From positions 1-27,227 of the IMG/VR virus record IMGVR_UViG_3300009104_000102: a DNA stretch of 27,227 bases, one strand, 5' to 3'. Of this stretch, positions 4,260 to 27,085 are shown in pieces. The notes under the pieces were generated by a model. That model saw only the letters and a program-made list of their open reading frames with translations. It did not search any database and was not told the origin of the DNA. The translations under genes were made by a program, and so were the position numbers. Source of the DNA: a virus. Position 1 is the first letter of the stretch. Each line of letters opens with the position of its first letter.

Positions 4260-5958
4260 TAAGTTCGCCTGTTAGAGAGATAAGTGTCATCCCAAGCGGT
4301 TGCTCCTGTTTAACTGTGATTGAAGAATCAGCTTCTTTCCATCCTAGATTAGTAATATCGTGCTGTCCTGTAAATGCTGGAGGGGCTGAATCCATTGGAT
4401 CACCACCTGTTCTAAACACAAGTTGTGTATTGTTTACTGAAATACCGAGCGTTTGGTATAAATTCAATATAATTCTATTCCAAGATTTCTTTTTACCAAA
4501 AGAGGAGCCATCAGTTTGTGGAACTTCTGGAGGTAATGTAACAATTTCTGATGTATAAGCTAACCCTATGTAGGCTGTGCTGACATTCTCTGAAATACTT
4601 ACAGCACCGCTTGAAACCGTTGCGGATGCGTAAACCGCATTATCCCCTACAATTTGCACCGTTTGGCCTTCTAAATGAGTCAACCCAGAAAAAGAACTAG
4701 TAGGCGAACCAGAATAAGACAAACCAGAATCTACAAACATACTGGTATCAGAATACTCAATATAACGTACAGTACCCCCATTTACGGTTCTCTTAATGCT
4801 TGCCCATAATTGGTCGGCTTTGCCATCTGCCGTTGGTATTACAGCAATACTTTCTACTTCCGCATCAGTACCGCCTACAGGGTGTTGATGCCAAGCAACG
4901 ACTTGTTGATCTCTTTGATATGTTAGCCCTAGCAATACCCCATCTTCTCTAACCGCCCATACAATAGAATCTGGTTCTTGCTGATAAGCTAAATCAACAA
5001 TACCATCTCCTGTAATATCTTCAGCAAGTATAGTTAAATCTGGGGCAACAAAACCCTCAACATTAAGATCAAAAATCATTTGTCGTAGCTTCTTTTTTGA
5101 TCGTTGATTAAAAATAACAGCACGACCTGAAACAACAGGGCTTACCGTACTAGACCCATACTTGGTTTCCTGCACAACCCTCACGTTGGAAGGAGTAACA
5201 GGGTTGCCATTTCCATGTAGTTTAAATTCTCCTCCTACCGTACCAATCAACAAAACATCTGATGCTTTAAGCCAATAAATAACATTTACATCATCTGTAG
5301 CCAAAGTAAATTCTACCGACTCGTCATCCAAACCTGTACCCTGATTCATGTTTAAAAAATCACCAGATTTACTTGCCCAAATTGTCTGAGGATTATTATT
5401 TGTTCCTGCCCAGTACAAACGCTCTTCAAAAAATGTAACGCTTCTTGGGTAATCTCCTGACCCTCCTGCAAAATTAGCAGGAGCAGAAGTGAAGGTCAGT
5501 GTAGATAAAGTCCAATTAGTATGGCTTGTTCTAATAAGTTTTCTAGGAGCGTGATTAGGATGGGCAATATAAAGAGTATCAGCCGATTGTGCAAAATTGA
5601 TTTCAAATAATTCTGCTGTGAGATACGGAGTAGCAATTTCTACAGGACTGCCACCAGAGGTAATTTGACCATTATCCATATAGAATCGAATATAGGTGTT
5701 GCCAAATTCTATAATGTAGGCCTGACTAATACTAAATTCAAATCTAACTAAGCGTACTTTAGCAGAATTAGTCTTTACTCCTGCTACATAATGGAAACCT
5801 GATCTGCGTACTACCCCACCATGCGGTAAACTATAAGCATTTTTCTGGGTTTTTAGCCCATTGTTGTACTTATTAATATCAACTCTACCATGCAATCTTG
5901 GCGATAGTTGCCCTGCCGTAAAGTTAGTCTGTATCGGAAAATATTTGTTAGTTGCCAT
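4246..5958 (-). CDS. Tail nozzle / tail tubular protein B-like (gp12-like)
   Basis: This 570-residue protein begins with a motif common in podoviral nozzle proteins (QTNFTAGQLSPRLHGRVDI at about residues 9-27, followed by LPHGGVVRRSGFHYV). Most of the rest is rich in beta-strand, aromatic and Ser/Thr residues, as expected of a beta-propeller nozzle built below the tail adaptor. It sits immediately after the adaptor gene and before the gp13-like gene, the same order as T7 genes 11-12-13, but is shorter than T7 gp12 (about 794 residues). The start at 5958 follows the adaptor stop directly. No depolymerase domain was recognised. Confidence 0.72.
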   Translation of the reverse strand: MATNKYFPIQTNFTAGQLSPRLHGRVDINKYNNGLKTQKNAYSLPHGGVVRRSGFHYVAGVKTNSAKVRLVRFEFSISQAYIIEFGNTYIRFYMDNGQITSGGSPVEIATPYLTAELFEINFAQSADTLYIAHPNHAPRKLIRTSHTNWTLSTLTFTSAPANFAGGSGDYPRSVTFFEERLYWAGTNNNPQTIWASKSGDFLNMNQGTGLDDESVEFTLATDDVNVIYWLKASDVLLIGTVGGEFKLHGNGNPVTPSNVRVVQETKYGSSTVSPVVSGRAVIFNQRSKKKLRQMIFDLNVEGFVAPDLTILAEDITGDGIVDLAYQQEPDSIVWAVREDGVLLGLTYQRDQQVVAWHQHPVGGTDAEVESIAVIPTADGKADQLWASIKRTVNGGTVRYIEYSDTSMFVDSGLSYSGSPTSSFSGLTHLEGQTVQIVGDNAVYASATVSSGAVSISENVSTAYIGLAYTSEIVTLPPEVPQTDGSSFGKKKSWNRIILNLYQTLGISVNNTQLVFRTGGDPMDSAPPAFTGQHDITNLGWKEADSSITVKQEQPLGMTLISLTGELNVND

Positions 5959-6537
5959 TTAACGCAACCTTATATCAGTCAACGTATCAGATTCTATAAT
6001 TTCTGGTGTACCTTCTTGCGAGTCTATAGAGCGTGCCTCTCTGACAACAGCCTCATACATAGACCCCATTTGACCCATAACCGTATGTGAACGCATGATT
6101 GGAAAAGATAATTTCCATGCCATCTTAAAAACTAGGGCTTGGTAAAGCAAAGCATCATACTGAGTAGTATCTTCTAATCTTTGAATATATGTAAGATCAA
6201 CGGTAGATTCTTCCGTAAAAAGTTCTCTGCCCTGTATTTCATGGTCTAGTTTTATATCTCCAGTAACCGTTCTAACATCCAGTACCCTTAAACAATAGGG
6301 GTCAGTAGGTAGAGTAAATTTATACTCCCAATCAATAATTGGAGTTTCAGCTAAAGAGGCAAGATTAATCGTTGTAATTGCACAGTTCCATCTATGACTA
6401 CGCAACACAGCATCTCTCTCACTTGGGAAAAAACGATTAACCAGTACAGCGTTAGAATCATTATCAGTAAAACTGGTAATTGTATTAGCACCTAGTAACA
6501 ATAATGCTTCGTTTGCTAAATCTACTTTTGAACTCAT
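5959..6537 (-). CDS. Tail adaptor / tail tubular protein A-like (gp11-like)
   Basis: This 192-residue protein opens with VDLANEALLLLGANTITSF, the usual beginning of T7 gp11-type adaptors, followed by RDAVLRSHRWNCA, also characteristic. These proteins form a dodecameric ring between portal and nozzle. The length matches the family (about 190-200 residues). It is flanked by the M15 peptidase upstream (start and stop overlap at 6537) and the nozzle downstream with no gap. Assignment is from sequence pattern and gene order, and confidence is high for a phage adaptor. Confidence 0.8.
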   Translation of the reverse strand: MSSKVDLANEALLLLGANTITSFTDNDSNAVLVNRFFPSERDAVLRSHRWNCAITTINLASLAETPIIDWEYKFTLPTDPYCLRVLDVRTVTGDIKLDHEIQGRELFTEESTVDLTYIQRLEDTTQYDALLYQALVFKMAWKLSFPIMRSHTVMGQMGSMYEAVVREARSIDSQEGTPEIIESDTLTDIRLR

Positions 6538-8611: not shown

Positions 8612-9456
8612 TCATCCTCCTGATATACTAGGTCGTATAAATGATCTCTGTAGGAAATCGCTTCCTCATGCTTAGAGTGCATAGGGTCAAATAATGCTTC
8701 ATGGTACTTATGACCCTTGTCTTTCATCATAGCATCAATTTCTAACTTAGCAGAATCAGAATCTATTGAACCTGCTGTTTTACCTGACCCTTCCAATTTA
8801 GGATCACTAAAAGATTTACCAATTTTATGCAGGAATCTAATTAAAGATACATTGTTTGAAACTCCAGACTCCTGTACAAACTTTTTTAAATCATCATCTG
8901 CAAACCGATTAAAAGCCCTACGTGAAATTGCAAGATTTCTGTCGTACTCTTTCACACCCCACTCTTTTTTGAGAGCAGTTTCGGCATCGACTTTAGCCTG
9001 TTGCATTTGGGCTTCAGAATTAATAGAGGACTCTTCATTCATCTTTGCGTAAAAATCAATCGCATCTTGAGCCTGCTTATTTGTTAGCCCTGACTGATGA
9101 GCCGTTTGCAGGAAATCAGCATACAACTTTTGATCGTATTTCATTCCTGTGCCACCCTCATCTGGTACTTTTATATCATAAGCGTCAGGTGATTCTGGTC
9201 TACCGAGTTTATTATAAAAACTATTAACTTCTTCTTCAGTAGATTCTTCAGTAGGGATTTTATCCCTTGAACCTACCATTTTCTGCAACTCTAAATAAGA
9301 ACTGCCGAGAGAACCTACATCTTTAAATTTATTTAAAGTCTCGTTCTCTCTTAAATCTTCTGGTAAATATCGCCCCTGCCATGTTTCTTCTGCTACTGGT
9401 GCTTCTTCTGATATAAGGTTATCGCTACTCACGGCCTCTTGTTCAGCTTCAGACAT
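8608..9456 (-). CDS. Capsid assembly scaffolding protein
   Basis: This 282-residue acidic, highly charged protein has a disordered Glu-rich N-terminus (residues 1-25), long helical segments in the middle and a charged C-terminus, as in podoviral scaffolds. The segments DLRENETLNKFKDVGSLGSSY and LGRPESPDAYDIKVP (about residues 34-100) are recurrent in phage scaffold proteins. Scaffold is needed for procapsid formation and is lost on maturation. It lies between portal and capsid, as in T7 (gene 9). Start and stop overlap those of the neighbours by one to four bases. Confidence 0.75.
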   Translation of the reverse strand: MSEAEQEAVSSDNLISEEAPVAEETWQGRYLPEDLRENETLNKFKDVGSLGSSYLELQKMVGSRDKIPTEESTEEEVNSFYNKLGRPESPDAYDIKVPDEGGTGMKYDQKLYADFLQTAHQSGLTNKQAQDAIDFYAKMNEESSINSEAQMQQAKVDAETALKKEWGVKEYDRNLAISRRAFNRFADDDLKKFVQESGVSNNVSLIRFLHKIGKSFSDPKLEGSGKTAGSIDSDSAKLEIDAMMKDKGHKYHEALFDPMHSKHEEAISYRDHLYDLVYQEDE

Positions 9457-9725
9457 TATATTTCACTCCATTGTGGGTTTGAGGTTTGCTTATTTTTCGA
9501 TTCTTGTTTTAACGCCTTGTACGCTCGAATTTGCTCTTTTATTCCTAAAACCAACCCTCGCCCACCTTCGTTAAAAAAAGTCGAATATGGGTCATTTGGG
9601 ACGGCTGACGTTTGATTCTGGTACATATCCTCCAAAAATTTCAAAACTTTTTCGCCATGCACACCAGAGAACGTCTTAACTATTGCTTCTCTTATTTCTT
9701 CAAGGTCATTGTACTGGGAACGCAT
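9456..9725 (-). CDS. Conserved small protein between portal and scaffold
   Basis: This 89-residue protein begins by overlapping the portal stop by 20 bases and ends on the first base of the scaffold gene. Its sequence contains KTFSGVHGEKVLKFLEDMY and STFFNEGGRGLVLGIKEQI, a pattern I associate with small podoviral head-module proteins of unknown function (Bbp19-like). It is predicted mostly helical without Cys. The context suggests a head or connector accessory role; this is not shown by any motif. Confidence 0.55.
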   Translation of the reverse strand: MRSQYNDLEEIREAIVKTFSGVHGEKVLKFLEDMYQNQTSAVPNDPYSTFFNEGGRGLVLGIKEQIRAYKALKQESKNKQTSNPQWSEI

Positions 9726-11349
9726 CTACCCCTCCTAATGCTTTAACCATTGGAGCAACTTTTCCTGCACCCTCGGCTACAGTAGAAGCCTGCTCTAGTT
9801 GCTGTTGCTGTTCTAACTGTTGTTGTCTTTGCTCTCTTAATTGAGCCACTTCCTCTTGAGAACGCATAACTTCAGACGGTACAGCCATCCTTTCACCAAT
9901 AATTTGTAACGCTTGGTCAACATCAATATTATCAAGTACTTCAGGTGAGAATGAAGCCATGTTGGAAGCAACCCCAAGCCATCTCTGAATACTCGTAACA
10001 TCCTGTATTTTCTGGTTTTTCGCCAGTTGCCCAACATAAGACACCTCAATTTCATCTAAGCCTTCTAGTTCTGGAGGGGGAGGTGGTAACGCTCCTGCTC
10101 TGTTTAGTAAACCAAAACTTCTTAATATAATAGGTGTAAGTACTTCACTTTCAAACCTAGCGACAGTAGGGCCAAGCAGTTTTTGGATTTGCTCTCTTAC
10201 AGTAGCTACCTCTTCCGCAGTCATGTTCAGTTTTTCTGGTAATACAAGCTGATCTGCTAAAAAGATTCCTCTGATAGATTTTTTAAGTTCATCTGCTTTA
10301 AGAGAAGATAAGTCAAATCTGCCTTCAAATCTAAGGAATTTAAACCTCTCTGGTTCCCTAGAGTAGTTAATTGCAGAAGGAGTCATCCTAAATGTGCCTA
10401 TAATCCCTTGATCTGGAGCAATCAATGGAGGATGTACTGCCGTAGCCAACCCTTTCAGTTCTAATTCCCTGATTTTATTTATAGTTTTAATGTCAGGCAT
10501 GGCAATATCAGCAGGGCTTCTACCCCACAATTCACCTGATGCCTTCTCAAATCTTCCTATAACATAGGGTAATTCTTCAAAACCACTTTCTCTACATAGC
10601 TTTTTAGAATCTAAATGAATGTCAAATGAAGCATATTGTTTGTCTTTAACATCCATAGAGCCAAATTTATATTCATCTCTTGGAATCAGTACTCTAACAA
10701 ACGTAAACTTTTCATCAGGTTTATTTCTTAAAGCCTCTTTTACTTTATCGGGGCATTTACCTTGACCAAACATTTGTTTGGCTTGCCTTGCAGTTAAAAT
10801 GTATTCCCAAAATACAGTATCAGGTTGCCCTCTCTTATCTTCAGCAAACACAAACTGGCCTGTAGGGATGGATGTAAAGACTAATCCCCCAAAATTACCC
10901 TTATAGACATCGTTTTCTTCCAAAAGAAGATTAATAGTGCCAAAGGAAGTAAAATCTAAAAATGCTTCACCTATAGCTGTGTAGAAGTTAGACTCATGGA
11001 ACGCAAAAAACATTTTCTGCGTAACATCGTGAAACCATCTTTTAACCGAGGGTGCTTTGTTCAGCATCGAGGCAGGATGCCCAGATGGGATTGAAAGACC
11101 AAACCATACGACAGATTGAGGAACTAACGCATTTTGCATCGACATAGCCATCAAACGGCTTGCTTCTGGTGCGGAAGAGTCAAACATTTTATTAGTATGA
11201 CGTTCAGCACTAATAGACGGAGATGAATCTACTTTTTGTTTGCGTGGTCTTATGTAATCTCGTACATCACGAAAAAACGGTTCCCATAACATTCGATCTT
11301 GCTTGAGAACTTCGTATCGTCTTACTAGGTCTTTTGCGTAATCCGACAT
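9706..11349 (-). CDS. Portal (head-tail connector) protein
   Basis: This 547-residue protein is close in length to T7 gp8 (536). Family-typical parts are visible: an N-terminal helical YEVLKQDRMLWEPFFRDVRDYI, then FDSSAPEASRLMAMSMQNAL, a wing with FHESNFYTAIGEAFLDFTSFG, and a stem/crown region including LNMTAEEVATVREQI. A Gln-rich stretch (about residues 500-525) precedes the C-terminus. The portal forms the dodecameric DNA gate at one vertex. It stands between the terminase side and the scaffold, as expected. Confidence 0.85.
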   Translation of the reverse strand: MSDYAKDLVRRYEVLKQDRMLWEPFFRDVRDYIRPRKQKVDSSPSISAERHTNKMFDSSAPEASRLMAMSMQNALVPQSVVWFGLSIPSGHPASMLNKAPSVKRWFHDVTQKMFFAFHESNFYTAIGEAFLDFTSFGTINLLLEENDVYKGNFGGLVFTSIPTGQFVFAEDKRGQPDTVFWEYILTARQAKQMFGQGKCPDKVKEALRNKPDEKFTFVRVLIPRDEYKFGSMDVKDKQYASFDIHLDSKKLCRESGFEELPYVIGRFEKASGELWGRSPADIAMPDIKTINKIRELELKGLATAVHPPLIAPDQGIIGTFRMTPSAINYSREPERFKFLRFEGRFDLSSLKADELKKSIRGIFLADQLVLPEKLNMTAEEVATVREQIQKLLGPTVARFESEVLTPIILRSFGLLNRAGALPPPPPELEGLDEIEVSYVGQLAKNQKIQDVTSIQRWLGVASNMASFSPEVLDNIDVDQALQIIGERMAVPSEVMRSQEEVAQLREQRQQQLEQQQQLEQASTVAEGAGKVAPMVKALGGVDAFPVQ

Positions 11350-14889: not shown

Positions 14890-15078
14890 TTACTCCTCTT
14901 CGGTTTGTTTCTCTTTTTTAGCAAGGTAAACAATGAAGTCAGGTTCACTCTCCTTCTCCTTGAAAGAATTAGACATCACCAGTAACTTTGTACCATAAGT
15001 GAACGTGCCACTAAAGTATTTATTACCGTTTTTGTCCTGCCCTTCCCACAAACCCCCAATTTTAATCAAGTCACTCAT
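14890..15078 (-). CDS. Small conserved phage protein (DUF736-like pattern)
   Basis: This 62-residue beta-rich protein contains GGLWEGQDKNGNKYFSGTF and a closing DFIVYLAKKEK. That arrangement recurs in short phage proteins and loosely resembles DUF736 (small OB-like or ssDNA-associated proteins). GGAGG lies eight bases before the ATG, and the start overlaps the DUF5664 stop. The function is unknown. A role with nucleic acid or nucleotide-metabolism neighbours is possible from position only. Confidence 0.5.
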   Translation of the reverse strand: MSDLIKIGGLWEGQDKNGNKYFSGTFTYGTKLLVMSNSFKEKESEPDFIVYLAKKEKQTEEE

Positions 15079-15508
15079 GTTCGTGATCCTCCATAATAGT
15101 TGGTACGCTCTTTTTTGGGCGACCTACAGGTCGTTTTGGCGGTGGCGATTGAACCGCATATTTAAAACCTTCACCATTCTTCATAAATCCGAGATCAGTC
15201 AAATCATTGAATTCGGGAAGATTCTTCTCGTTCCAAACTAACATCATAAGGTTGGCTAATGCGTGTCCTATATGATCCTCTTCTCTCCTGCCCTGCATAT
15301 AGAGGTTAATATGCCGTAAGGCATGGTTTATGTATACAGAATGTTTAAGACCTTTTTTCCAGTTGTTATCGCCATGATGTACCGACCCAACATACATAGC
15401 TTTCGCTACGGCCTCTATACCCTCTGGTGGCACTAAGTCATACCGTACCCCATCTACGTCTGCACTACGGCTTGCTCCTGTCTCATAAACCTTTTTTTCG
15501 TTAAGCAC
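15071..15508 (-). CDS. DUF5664 / dATP-dGTP diphosphohydrolase N-terminal-like protein
   Basis: This 145-residue protein shows the family pattern of DUF5664: YDLVPPEGIEAVAKAMYVG, then HHGDNNWKKGL, a helical INHALRHINLYMQG, and HIGHALANLMMLVWNE. Pfam names it for the N-terminal part of a phage dATP/dGTP diphosphohydrolase, so purine dNTP handling is a reasonable guess. The C-terminus adds an AT-hook-like core (KRPVGRPKKS, about residues 124-133), which would bind AT-rich DNA minor grooves. The start is a GTG at 15508 with a strong GGGGGAG. It is the first gene of the leftward unit. Confidence 0.62.
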   Translation of the reverse strand: MLNEKKVYETGASRSADVDGVRYDLVPPEGIEAVAKAMYVGSVHHGDNNWKKGLKHSVYINHALRHINLYMQGRREEDHIGHALANLMMLVWNEKNLPEFNDLTDLGFMKNGEGFKYAVQSPPPKRPVGRPKKSVPTIMEDHEHE

Positions 15509-15614
15509 ACTCTCCCCCTTTCGATCATATTTGTAAATTACTTGTTTAAATAATCTAATTAATCAAACTCAGTCCCTAAGACGGTAGTTGTATTTATTTT
15601 TTTCTATATATTCT

Positions 15615-15643
15615 ATTGTATCATATTTCCATTGACACTGCAA
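15615..15643 (-). promoter_or_regulatory. Sigma70 extended -10 promoter for the leftward unit
   Basis: On the minus strand TTGCAG (15643-15638) and TACAAT (15620-15615) are 17 bases apart, and TGA precedes the -10 box, making an extended -10. Transcription would begin near 15608, about 100 bases before the GTG of the DUF5664 gene. Confidence 0.6.
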
Positions 15644-15675
15644 CCCCTTTTTTGGGTTTTTTAATTTTTTTTTTG
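15642..15675 (+). terminator. Weak plus-strand terminator-like hairpin
   Basis: AACCC (15642-15646) can pair with GGGTT (15654-15658) around a T-rich loop, followed by a T run and a further ten Ts (15665-15674). The short stem makes this a weak intrinsic terminator. It could equally be simple-sequence flank of the minus-strand promoter, whose -35 box overlaps it. Confidence 0.3.
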
Positions 15676-15760
15676 GAAAATTCTGTCGTCCTACGGATGG
15701 GTTAATAAATAGCGTAACGAATTCCCAATTTTCGGGGTCGACCTGCGTTAGAAATGAAAT

Positions 15761-15781
15761 TGAGAATGGTTCTCAAAATCA
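15761..15781 (+). promoter_or_regulatory. Fur-box-like operator 1
   Basis: The core TGAGAATGGTTCTCA is followed six bases later by ATCA. It agrees with the canonical 21-bp Fur operator at 15 of 21 positions. It lies 15 bases before a sigma54-like element. Confidence 0.5.
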
Positions 15782-15790
15782 AAAAGAGGG

Positions 15791-15806
15791 TGGCATGGGT
15801 CTTGCA
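15791..15806 (+). promoter_or_regulatory. Sigma54-like -24/-12 element, P1 rightward
   Basis: TGGCATGGGTCTTGCA has GG and GC dinucleotides ten bases apart and matches TGGCAYG-N4-TTGCA at all fixed positions. It faces P1 leftward across four bases (CCCC). Confidence 0.5.
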
Positions 15807-15810
15807 CCCC

Positions 15811-15826
15811 TGCAAGAAGCGTGCCA
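15811..15826 (-). promoter_or_regulatory. Sigma54-like -24/-12 element, P1 leftward
   Basis: On the minus strand this reads TGGCACGCTTCTTGCA, identical to the classical sigma54 consensus TGGCACG-N4-TTGCA. Together with P1 rightward it makes a 16-bp inverted repeat with three mismatches. Confidence 0.55.
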
Positions 15827-15836
15827 TACATCCCAT

Positions 15837-15857
15837 TGAGAATGGTTCTCATTATCA
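15837..15857 (+). promoter_or_regulatory. Fur-box-like operator 2
   Basis: The core TGAGAATGGTTCTCA continues with TTATCA, so two overlapping 7-1-7 palindromes can be drawn. It agrees with the canonical 21-bp Fur operator at 17 of 21 positions. Confidence 0.55.
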
Positions 15858-15899
15858 AAATGATAGTGATAGTAAGCGAAGCCACCTTTGATAGTATTT

Positions 15900-15920
15900 T
15901 GAGAATGATTCTCATTATCA
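15900..15920 (+). promoter_or_regulatory. Fur-box-like operator 3
   Basis: The core TGAGAATGATTCTCA is a perfect 7-1-7 palindrome and continues with TTATCA. It matches the canonical 21-bp Fur operator at 18 of 21 positions, the best of the four 21-mers. Confidence 0.6.
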
Positions 15921-15941
15921 ATATGGATCATGGGTACAAAT

Positions 15942-15962
15942 TGAGAATGACTCTCAATATCA
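15942..15962 (+). promoter_or_regulatory. Fur-box-like operator 4
   Basis: The core TGAGAATGACTCTCA is followed by ATATCA, 16 of 21 matches to the Fur operator. It covers the predicted start-site area of P2 leftward, where a repressor would block initiation. Confidence 0.5.
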
Positions 15963-15974
15963 GCCGTCCGTCCT

Positions 15975-15990
15975 TGCAAGATTCATGCCG
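15975..15990 (-). promoter_or_regulatory. Sigma54-like -24/-12 element, P2 leftward
   Basis: On the minus strand CGGCATGAATCTTGCA keeps the GG-N10-GC frame and the TTGCA -12 block. It stands back to back with P2 rightward, five bases apart. Confidence 0.45.
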
Positions 15991-15995
15991 TAGAA

Positions 15996-16011
15996 TGGCA
16001 TGATTATTGCA
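15996..16011 (+). promoter_or_regulatory. Sigma54-like -24/-12 element, P2 rightward
   Basis: TGGCATGATTATTGCA matches the sigma54 consensus at all fixed positions. With P2 leftward it forms an inverted repeat whose 15-base arms match at 13 positions. Confidence 0.5.
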
Positions 16012-16053
16012 TACAATAAAAAGGCGAACATATAACGAACAAATGCTTCTAAT

Positions 16054-16068
16054 TGATAATGATTATCA
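16054..16068 (+). promoter_or_regulatory. Near-canonical Fur box 5
   Basis: TGATAATGATTATCA is exactly the 7-1-7 Fur consensus (TGATAAT-N-ATTATCA). It lies about 45 bases downstream of P2 rightward. Confidence 0.65.
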
Positions 16069-16090
16069 GAATAGGGGTGTGCTGTAAGTT

Positions 16091-16104
16091 ATTGTAAACA
16101 AAGG
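16091..16104 (+). repeat. Direct repeat ATTGTAAACAAAGG, copy 1
   Basis: The same 14 bases recur exactly at 16347-16360, where they form the ribosome-site end of a leader. Copy 1 has no start codon after it. It could be an operator or a remnant of a duplication. Confidence 0.45.
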
Positions 16105-16205
16105 CCTCCCATTTGTACGTTCTCAACTGCATTAAGGCCTATGTATTGACAAAATAATCAGGCCTTATTTGCCTTGTGAGAGCCTTACAGGGGATAGAGA
16201 TAAAA

Positions 16206-16221
16206 CGGCACGATTATTGCA
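16206..16221 (+). promoter_or_regulatory. Sigma54-like -24/-12 element, P3 rightward
   Basis: CGGCACGATTATTGCA differs from the consensus only at the first base. It shares GGCAYGATTATTGCAT with P2 rightward, 210 bases away, so the two look like copies of one another. Confidence 0.45.
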
Positions 16222-16226
16222 TCCCA

Positions 16227-16242
16227 TGCAAGAACTATACCA
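16227..16242 (-). promoter_or_regulatory. Degenerate sigma54-like element, P3 leftward
   Basis: On the minus strand TGGTATAGTTCTTGCA keeps TGG and TTGCA at the right spacing but has lost CA of the -24 block. It faces P3 rightward, giving the palindrome TTGCATCCCATGCAA between them. Confidence 0.3.
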
Positions 16243-16346
16243 TTTAAAATCATAGGTTTATACGCCTAAATAGGCCTAGTCCAAACAGGCACAAAACAAG
16301 GCCAAAACCTGTTAAAAAAACGATAAAAACCAAGCACCCCTAAACC

Positions 16347-16360
16347 ATTGTAAACAAAGG
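16347..16360 (+). repeat. Direct repeat ATTGTAAACAAAGG, copy 2
   Basis: This is an exact copy of 16091-16104. Here its AAAGG end extends into AGGAG and serves as ribosome site for the seven-codon leader at 16365. Confidence 0.45.
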
Positions 16361-16364
16361 AGTT

Positions 16365-16388
16365 ATGATGACAGTAGTCGAAGCGTGA
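16365..16388 (+). CDS. Possible leader peptide of seven residues
   Basis: AAAGGAG is followed by ATG ATG and a seven-residue frame (MMTVVEA) ending in TGA. That stop overlaps a GTG at 16385 that opens a longer frame continuous with the next gene. Whether it is translated is unknown. It could be a leader that couples translation, or a decayed gene start. Confidence 0.25.
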   Translation: MMTVVEA

Positions 16389-16447: not shown

Positions 16448-16476
16448 TTGCAATACGTCAAGCAGTATGAGATAAT
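16448..16476 (+). promoter_or_regulatory. Sigma70-like early promoter
   Basis: TTGCAA (16448-16453) and GATAAT (16471-16476) are 17 bases apart. The start site would be near 16483, 40 bases before the first well-supported early gene. Confidence 0.45.
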
Positions 16477-17278: not shown

Positions 17279-17295
17279 TGAGAATACTATTCTCA
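17279..17295 (+). promoter_or_regulatory. Fur-box-like palindrome with wider spacing
   Basis: TGAGAAT and ATTCTCA are separated by three bases (ACT) rather than one. The half-sites equal those of the operators at 15.7-16.0 kb. It lies between the early terminator and the next operon. Confidence 0.35.
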
Positions 17296-17301
17296 AAATG
17301 C

Positions 17302-17332
17302 ACTATCATAAGGTACTATCATTTACTATCAT
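17302..17332 (+). repeat. Three ACTATCAT repeats
   Basis: ACTATCAT occurs at 17302, 17314 and 17325. The reverse complement heptamer TGATAGT occurs five times between 15861 and 16411. The rest of 17333-17492 holds no gene that I can see. Confidence 0.45.
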
Positions 17333-19434: not shown

Positions 19435-19665
19435 ATGCTGTTAATAGAGTTGACATTGAGTTGTTGGACTTTATATGCACTTAGAGAATTCGGTAAGGGT
19501 AGGAAAGTGGGTGCTGTAATGGCACTTATAGCTAATGTATGTTGGATAAGTATGTGGTTATACACTAAGCAGTATGGATTTATTCCCATTGATCTTGGAC
19601 TTATGTTTGTCTATTGGGAAAGATTACTAATATTACTTAGAGGAGGTAGTGAGTGGGTAGAGTAA
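19435..19665 (+). CDS. Multi-span membrane protein, faintly PnuC-like
   Basis: This 76-residue protein has two to three hydrophobic spans: residues 1-15, about 26-44 (VGAVMALIANVCWISMWLYT) and about 50-70. The Trp-containing second and third spans recall half of a PnuC-type vitamin transporter or similar small phage membrane proteins. The likeness is weak, and the protein is far shorter than PnuC (about 240 residues). AAGGA precedes the ATG. Its stop overlaps the start of the HTH gene. Confidence 0.45.
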   Translation: MLLIELTLSCWTLYALREFGKGRKVGAVMALIANVCWISMWLYTKQYGFIPIDLGLMFVYWERLLILLRGGSEWVE

Positions 19666-19814
19666 AGGCATCTAAGCCTGTAGGGAATACCGCAGAAATA
19701 GTACGGTTGCTAAGTAACGGACATTCCCAATCAGAAGTAGCAAGAACATTTGAGGTAAGTAGGCAGTATATACATATCGTTCGTAACAGATGGAAAAAAT
19801 TAATCTTACAATGA
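19653..19814 (+). CDS. Small helix-turn-helix protein (GTG start)
   Basis: This 53-residue basic protein reads through a compact HTH: AEIVRLLSNGHSQSEVARTF as helices 1-2 and VSRQYIHIVRNRWKK as the recognition helix, like the Hin/resolvase-tail and sigma-region-4 kind. The GTG at 19653 has AGGAGG six bases upstream, and the gene overlaps the end of the membrane-protein gene by 13 bases. It is the only obvious DNA-binding regulator in the window, so it may act on the repeated palindromes of the control region; that link is inference. Confidence 0.6.
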   Translation: MGRVKASKPVGNTAEIVRLLSNGHSQSEVARTFEVSRQYIHIVRNRWKKLILQ

Positions 19815-22685: not shown

Positions 22686-22738
<53 letters not shown>

Positions 22739-26838: not shown

Positions 26839-27085
26839 GGATTTCTGTAGTGCGATGTTTGAGTAGATGTTGTAGGATCATATTATTTGTATCTTTAATA
26901 TGAGAAAGACTTTCATCGAGATCGTCTTTAGTTATATGTGTACGTTCTACATATTCTATTCTCTCCTCCATGTGATCTAGTCTTTTAAATAGCATCTTTA
27001 CAGTCCAAGCCCCTGTACTAGCGAGAATTCCCAGTGCCCATAACCACCACTCGTTGACCTTATCCACATTAATTTCTCGCTCCAT
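26810..27085 (-). CDS. Membrane protein with coiled-coil tail
   Basis: This 91-residue protein has one transmembrane segment (about residues 13-33, WWLWALGILASTGAWTVKM) and a long charged, heptad-like helix after it (KRLDHMEERIEYVERTH). This layout resembles small holin-like or spanin-like proteins and phage XhlA-type factors in reverse order. A GGAG-type ribosome site is not evident before the ATG at 27085; coupling to the upstream gene, whose stop is at 27088, is likely. The role in lysis is a guess from shape. Confidence 0.5.
   Translation of the reverse strand: MEREINVDKVNEWWLWALGILASTGAWTVKMLFKRLDHMEERIEYVERTHITKDDLDESLSHIKDTNNMILQHLLKHRTTEIHAKKDTQDI

Follow-up and report, generated by a model that had tools for sequence, protein, structure and literature searches.

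Does an array of Fur-box-like palindromes between the early and the late genes of a phage place its early switch under the control of host iron status, as a sequence-only reading of this locus had proposed, or does the array serve another function?

The intergenic region and its probable Fur boxes

The window analysed here spans 27,227 bp and makes up an entire IMG/VR virus record. According to the PHROG annotation, its leftward genes encode the portal/connector, the major head protein, the large terminase and tail proteins, and its rightward genes a RecE-like exonuclease, a Sak-like annealing protein, a DnaB-like helicase and a RusA-like resolvase. The gap between the two groups is flanked by a leftward gene for a pyrophosphohydrolase-like protein (15071-15508) and, on the other side, by the first rightward ORF, which starts at 16385.

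15509-16384, no strand: intergenic region of 876 bp, from the ORF map, between the leftward late/structural and the rightward early/replication genes; it holds the whole array

Among the best 25 of the 238 records matched by the connector protein, the nearest named relatives are ~31-36% identical and belong to Pelagibacter, Alteromonas and Yersinia phages; the wider tally of the 238 consists mostly of Vibrio phages. At this low identity we therefore assign no host from the connector, and infer from the motifs described below that it may be a gammaproteobacterium. Megablast of positions 7-17.5 kb against INPHARED and the Rfam and tRNA scans of the window gave no matches, and no close relatives of the early 168-aa protein were found. 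A blastn search of the array against INPHARED returned 95 records at an E limit of 10; those listed had E values of ~6 and none spanned most of the query, so they were set aside as chance.

The five palindromes noted by the sequence-only reading at 15761, 15837, 15900, 15942 and 16054 are all present, and its counts for the first four (15, 17, 18 and 16 of 21 positions) are exact against TGATAATGATAATCATTATCA. The fifth, TGATAATGATTATCA at 16054-16068, is the exact 7-1-7 consensus (15/15); the other four agree with it at 12-13 of 15 positions and carry a third ATCA-ended unit. All thus have the 7-1-7 or three-hexamer palindrome by which the accessible part of PMC7536154 defines a Fur box, and their fit resembles that of the Vibrio Fur box AATGATAATAATTATCATT published there.

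For scoring with a Fur position matrix, which the same reading had recommended, Gibbs sampling on the sequences upstream of 13 E. coli K-12 Fur-regulated units was used to derive a 19-bp palindromic matrix. Its consensus AATGATAATCATTATCATT emerged de novo, without being supplied. On this matrix, which is that of E. coli and perhaps not that of the host, the window sites score 17.5-21.6, all above the K-12 background maximum of 15.5 over 117,733 positions and comparable to the training sites (14.0-23.8).

15759-15777, no strand: Fur box 1 (15761), score 17.6
15835-15853, no strand: Fur box 2 (15837), score 21.6
15898-15922, no strand: Fur box 3 (15900), two overlapping 19-mers, scores 21.5 and 18.8
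15940-15958, no strand: Fur box 4 (15942), score 17.8
16052-16070, no strand: Fur box 5 (16054), exact 7-1-7 (15/15), score 17.5

Such a cluster was claimed to lie beyond chance, and shuffling bears this out. A relaxed Fur 15-mer has 12 matches in the window with both strands counted, versus 0.18 expected from 100 shuffles, and the 876-bp region holds four exact and five one-mismatch-or-better sites, whereas 1000 dinucleotide shuffles average 0.0 and 0.004, respectively. All scores of at least 17 fall within 15759-16070, giving five strong sites in 320 bp. As in arrays of the CtrA/LPEG kind, the sites share one non-coding region and are stronger there than elsewhere in the genome. The best score outside the array, 13.9 at 22712-22718, comes from a low-complexity AAT trinucleotide run (22706-22721) and was not counted as a Fur site, nor was a similar site at position 984 of a related locus, L060. 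A weaker two-sided palindrome, TTGAGAATACTATTCTCAA, near 17279-17297 was dismissed for its poor 7-1-7 fit, and a further one-mismatch site lies at 6452 within a structural gene. Because the five palindromes score like real Fur sites, the record holds no Fur homologue, and comparable arrays recur in unrelated phages (see below), they are very likely genuine binding sites for host Fur.

Sigma-54-like elements among the Fur boxes

Six near-consensus sigma-54 (RpoN) -24/-12 elements lie among the Fur boxes at 15790-16243, in both orientations; this half of the array had been overlooked in the sequence-only reading. Each is 17 bp long and close to YTGGCAYG-N4-TTGCA.

15790-15806, plus strand: sigma-54-like element GTGGCATGGGTCTTGCA, score 18.3
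15811-15827, minus strand: sigma-54-like element ATGGCACGCTTCTTGCA, score 19.3, convergent with 15790-15806
15975-15991, minus strand: sigma-54-like element ACGGCATGAATCTTGCA, score 14.7
15995-16011, plus strand: sigma-54-like element ATGGCATGATTATTGCA, score 21.5, divergent from 15975-15991
16205-16221, plus strand: sigma-54-like element ACGGCACGATTATTGCA, score 15.0
16227-16243, minus strand: sigma-54-like element ATGGTATAGTTCTTGCA, score 13.9, convergent with 16205-16221

The scoring matrix was built from 22 intergenic E. coli sigma-54 ChIP-seq sites taken from the available text of PMC4591121. The six elements reach 13.9-21.5, compared to 10.6-19.0 for the E. coli ChIP sites themselves; the K-12 background rises to 18.1, in stretches that possibly include true sigma-54 sites. 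The window elements have both the GG-N10-GC spacing and the matrix fit of a sigma-54 promoter. Among 75 loci selected solely on protein homology, 46 copies of GGCAYR-Nk-TTGCA have a spacer of k = 4, and no other k between 0 and 10 is represented more than twice; over the same range, the half-elements of the window are found five times at spacer 4 and never at another. Moreover, the six free positions before GG show the preferences M-R-N-R-Y-T in 220 distinct arms of the viral scan, with T at 90%, and M-R-N-R-Y-T is the sigma-54 consensus at these positions. Given the spacer test, the matrix fit and the free flanking positions, the six elements are likely to be sigma-54-type sites. A hairpin reading of the inverted pairs was rejected, as their N4 spacers are often non-complementary by eye.

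The convergent pairs argue against most of these elements being promoters. Defined as two elements head to head at 3-7 bp, such pairs occur in 105 viral stretches versus four stretches in 84,980 bacterial and archaeal genomes (257 billion bases), both figures being stretch counts rather than densities; two of the four cellular stretches come from one actinobacterium. Their near absence from cellular genomes suggests absence from prophages as well, which would make the convergent pair a feature of virulent phages. Dense arrays are common among the viral loci; L130 and L171 each hold 12 sigma-54-like elements in ~350 bp, and blastn of the L130 array against INPHARED gave no matches. Tandem perfect DnaA boxes stand amid 11-12 sigma-54-like elements in L130 (2024 and 2035) and L132 (4131 and 4142).

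With sigma-54-like sites interleaved, the locus looks less like an iron switch than like a composite array for host regulators, within which the five palindromes are very probably true host Fur sites. Fur is the host's master switch for iron, and sigma-54 that for nitrogen and motility genes.

Arrays in relatives and in unrelated phages

Seven related loci carry the neighbouring pyrophosphohydrolase-like gene, five of them with enough upstream sequence to judge; L064 is too short, and L070 covers 293 bp with one sigma-54-like site. The Fur sites are kept in three of the five. L065, L066 and L068 (on the same contigs as L003, L005 and L044) have two, four and two strong Fur sites, respectively, interleaved with sigma-54-like sites that reach ten or more in L066 and L068. 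The full upstream regions of L067 and L069 contain neither a Fur nor a sigma-54 array, apart from one isolated sigma-54-like match in L067; the array is therefore not essential to the family. Four more distant connector relatives (L022, L027, L030 and L043) have 2-4 sigma-54-like sites and no Fur array, and in L060, L061 and L062 a Fur box sits directly upstream of the ribosome-binding site of an early gene. Both halves of the array turn over within the family, the sigma-54 half reaching further, among loci most of which (of 74 others) end short of the control region.

Beyond the family, a sigma-54 element lies within 30 bp of a Fur box in 57 viral stretches from 56 IMG/VR contigs, in a scan of viral stretches only; two of the 57 (L272 and L284) have no Fur matrix score of at least 14 near the pattern. 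By blastn these contigs fall into ~19 mutually dissimilar groups, reduced from 21 by removing the added PG07 locus and merging L256 with L284, which share one contig. Strong Fur sites per 320 bp number at least two in 21, at least three in 10 and at least four in 9 of the 53 newly found loci, all selected for having one. Strong Fur sites that do not overlap reach 5-7 per 320 bp in phage arrays, compared to at most two at K-12 Fur promoters. Around sigma-54 clusters found regardless of Fur, there are six Fur sites in 119 kb near and 11 in 772 kb far, a modest excess (rate ratio 3.4), those near coming only from L084 and L114 of 103 sigma-54 loci. The reverse test gave six sigma-54 sites near Fur and two far, from L192 and L211 only of 40 Fur loci; the co-occurrence count omits L133, which shares a contig with L005. 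In L084, a 141-kb phage, a module of a Fur box, sigma-54-like elements and a strong sigma-70-like promoter is repeated at 600-1000, 2500-2800 and 4400-4750, each sigma-54-like element being flanked by GAGTTAYGTAAAG or similar.

Named phages were reached by a blastn search with the L211 array, which matched Escherichia phage JohannJBalmer (bas62; Justusliebigvirus), Pseudomonas phage PsgM04F and the T5-like Salmonella phage UTK0009; a match in Salmonella phage Munch lies inside an annotated gene rather than in an array and was not counted. The UTK0009 array in turn matches 543 INPHARED records, mostly T5-like among the matches listed. Overall, Fur arrays are carried by phages that are unrelated to each other and infect E. 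coli, Salmonella, Klebsiella, Vibrio or Pseudomonas. The ~19 dissimilar groups, together with the T5-like phages, Justusliebigvirus and PsgM04F, point to independent evolution. In bas62, five Fur sites are packed into ~115 bp at 79.0 kb, and a single non-coding region of Vibrio phage PG07 holds three DnaA boxes and two sigma-54-like elements together with Fur boxes.

In phage T5 (AY692264), the Fur array lies within the annotated injection stop signal (9140-10144). Its three Fur sites score 21.2, 26.7 and 21.4, as high as or above most K-12 sites, and adjoin DnaA-box-like sequences; the strict sigma-54 pattern has no match in the stop signal. All eight Fur-pattern matches in the T5 record fall in the terminal repeats, six of them in the two copies of the stop signal, compared to one match in T4, none in T7, one in lambda and none in N4. 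At least three Fur sites scoring 16 or more are present in all seven T5-like regions (T5, S114, UTK0009, IrmaTschudi, bastian, Spivey and PG07). In the available portion of a 2026 paper (PMC13250531), the T5 stop mechanism is described as poorly understood; the features named there are repeats, palindromes and DnaA boxes, with no mention of Fur.

Several further repeats and sites were seen in these phages. Several copies of TGTGCRAATCCGACA follow the Fur array in T5 (L234, ~9750-9980) and in other T5-like stop-signal regions, and the Fur array of PG07 is accompanied by a related repeat, GAATCCG (L236, ~1050-1110). Lambda (NC_001416) has an exact Fur 15-mer, TGATAATCATTATCA, near its right end (48452-48466), and exact Fur 15-mers are found near the same end of T5 (233-247, L249, inside dmp) and Klebsiella phage Spivey (MK630230, 206-220).

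Candidate functions and known systems

Four further features around the array bear on its function.

15610-15655, minus strand: predicted sigma-70-type late promoter region, GTGTCA-17-TAGAAT (9/12), with an overlapping TTGCAG/TATGAT by eye
16448-16476, plus strand: predicted sigma-70-type early promoter, TTGCAA-17-GATAAT, with TG before the -10
15861-15895, plus strand: third repeat TGATAGT (15861 and 15889), also at 16386 and 16405, and as ACTATCA at 17302, 17315 and 17325
19653-19814, plus strand: 53-aa HTH_23 protein (Pfam HTH_23, E 1.1e-6), a candidate rival binder with homologues in relatives

The promoter predictions are weak consensus matches (seven found versus 3.4 expected in shuffles); sequence similar to the late promoter region precedes the same gene in relatives by eye. 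Measured by eye, the Fur sites are at least ~100 bp from the predicted late promoter, in the window as in L065, L066 and L068, and ~380 bp from the predicted early promoter, in the window as in L062 and L066. Neither the Fur nor the sigma-54 sites overlap a predicted core promoter, and no Fur box falls between a -35 and a -10, the nearest core promoter being ~100 bp off. The layout therefore does not show classical promoter occlusion, and the sites are to be called predicted Fur binding sites rather than Fur-repressed promoters. Of the proposed iron-controlled early switch, the Fur identity of the sites thus holds, as far as their sequences tell, but the switch itself is unsupported, since they lie far from the predicted promoters.

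The TGATAGT repeat, in and around the array, is likewise repeated in L065, L066 and L062, and may be recognised by some other protein of host or phage. A block of conserved sequence (GACCCCGAAAA..TGGGAATT ... CCCATCC..AGAACGA) lies by eye upstream of the late promoter, at ~15690-15745 on the reverse strand; it is also present in L065, L066, L067, L068, L069 and L070, including the relatives without arrays.

We favour titration, in which the array would act as a decoy, over an early switch that senses iron. In the cell, RNA polymerase-sigma-54 and host Fur would be expected to bind the array, docking on the control region. Copying of the phage DNA would then yield hundreds of high-affinity sites, which could pull Fur (and sigma-54) away from host promoters, so that iron-uptake genes would be released and sigma-54-driven programmes dampened during infection. 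Multicopy Fur boxes are known to titrate Fur in E. coli, as in the Fur titration assay. The preference for titration rests on sites that lie off the predicted core promoters, run in both orientations and form convergent pairs, that are packed more densely than in the host and in many cases match or exceed the host sites in strength, and that combine unrelated regulators; the 105 viral against four cellular stretches with convergent pairs favour it over cis control in particular. We give the overall explanation, a composite array of host Fur sites and six sigma-54 elements acting mainly by titration, about an even chance, and titration as the main function of the array slightly less than that.

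Several points count against this explanation. The arrays are missing from L067 and L069, the four more distant connector relatives keep sigma-54-like sites without a Fur array, and the window Fur sites score below the best phage site (26.7 in T5). Titration demands a high copy number, Fur is abundant in cells, and the T5 array sits on DNA that enters first, ahead of replication. The composite character itself is weakened by the unbiased co-occurrence of Fur and sigma-54 sites, confined to two loci in either direction. In addition, the closest precedent, the CtrA arrays, acts in cis (PMC9437464).

Cis control is the main rival to titration. Host Fur, along with sigma-54 polymerase and a host activator, would regulate phage transcription and thereby inform the phage of the iron and nitrogen status of its host, in the way that phages with CtrA sites follow the cell cycle. 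In favour of this, the array is placed exactly where the leftward late and the rightward early genes diverge, and the arrays described in the available text of PMC9437464, located in phage gaps and terminal repeats, are bound by CtrA and repress or activate the promoters next to them. The Fur boxes just upstream of the ribosome-binding site in L060, L061 and L062 and the L084 modules, ordered Fur, sigma-54, then strong sigma-70-like promoter, also speak for it. In the window and its relatives, however, it has to contend with the distances of ~100 and ~380 bp given above, with sigma-54 elements that face both ways and converge, and with the lack of a recognisable activator gene among the early proteins scanned. 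We consider cis control a substantial possibility, albeit a doubtful one.

The T5 array suggests a further role, in which host proteins bound to the array would hold incoming phage DNA and act as a roadblock to its entry or movement, as the injection stop signal does. The DnaA-box-like sites and Fur boxes within that signal, the restriction of every T5 Fur-pattern match to the terminal repeats, and a stop mechanism still described as poorly understood are all in line with such a role. The window array, however, lies mid-contig between operons, on a contig that is not placed relative to genome ends or entry order, and nothing resembling the rest of the T5 signal was seen in the window. A roadblock fits T5 better than the window, for which it is very unlikely. 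A broader proposal is that virulent phages of many lineages independently evolved composite decoy arrays of Fur, sigma-54 and in some cases DnaA sites, the T5 stop signal being one in which pre-bound host Fur and DnaA would halt DNA entry; we regard this as rather unlikely.

Alternatively, the palindromes could be operators of a phage repressor, for example the 53-aa HTH_23 protein, with a coincidental likeness to Fur boxes. Among the early proteins scanned, no other small DNA-binding protein was recognised; this one is conserved in relatives, L060-L062 included, and repeated similar palindromes are typical of phage operators. However, arrays of this motif, as degenerate as real Fur boxes, are found in phages without detectable similarity, and the sites do not follow the lineage of a repressor gene; HTH homologues also occur at L219, L220, L222, L223 and L225 without a listed Fur site, at loci that may miss the control region. 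As the motif recurs in phages lacking detectable similarity, a phage-encoded repressor is highly improbable. A replication origin with iterons for an initiator is scarcely credible: three repeat families (Fur-like, sigma-54-like and TGATAGT) do share one non-coding stretch, and DnaA boxes occur in or beside the arrays of L130, L132 and PG07, but the sole DnaA-box match in the window is at 27060, outside the array, and the fit of the sequences to two unrelated host regulators, with a spacer fixed at 4, is too precise.

If the titration reading is correct, phage infection would be tied directly to iron and sigma-54, two of the best-known host regulons, and host-regulator sponges would be predicted as a general strategy of virulent phages that is invisible to gene-based annotation. 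The interest is high because T5 makes the Fur-array idea testable at once in E. coli, where it offers a concrete candidate for the host component of two-step DNA entry.

Sites for host regulators are familiar from other viruses. The pho boxes of cyanophages and the Fur-repressed stx1 promoter consist of few sites at one promoter, with one regulator and a clear cis role. Similarly, phi29 with Spo0A and the LexA-controlled phages (quoted in PMC9437464) resemble the window in that a virus carries host-regulator sites, but have few of them at a given promoter, with one regulator and a clear cis role. The T5 stop signal (AY692264, 9140-10144) is likewise a non-coding phage region with a Fur-box array by the same matrix, there beside DnaA-box-like sites; unlike the window array, it lies at the inner end of a terminal repeat, stops DNA entry and lacks strict-pattern sigma-54-like sites. 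The largely open-access literature searched yielded no report in which its palindromes are identified as Fur boxes, no description of phage arrays for Fur or sigma-54, and no natural phage decoy array. In the Fur titration assay, multicopy sites draw the regulator off host targets, as titration by the phage array would, although that system is artificial. The same holds for synthetic decoy sites in E. coli (PMC7826281). The closest known counterpart is the set of CtrA-site arrays in alphaproteobacterial LPEG phages. As far as the available text of PMC9437464 goes, these are also dense, high-scoring sites for a host master regulator, gathered in a large intergenic gap or a terminal repeat, and also evolved independently in unrelated phages and turn over between relatives. 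Host-regulator arrays in phage gaps are thus already known for CtrA, and the Fur and sigma-54 version is apparently new in the literature searched. The CtrA arrays serve one regulator, whereas the window array is shared by Fur and sigma-54; and for CtrA binding and action in cis have been demonstrated, whereas the window array is known from its sequence, with a layout that does not suggest action in cis.
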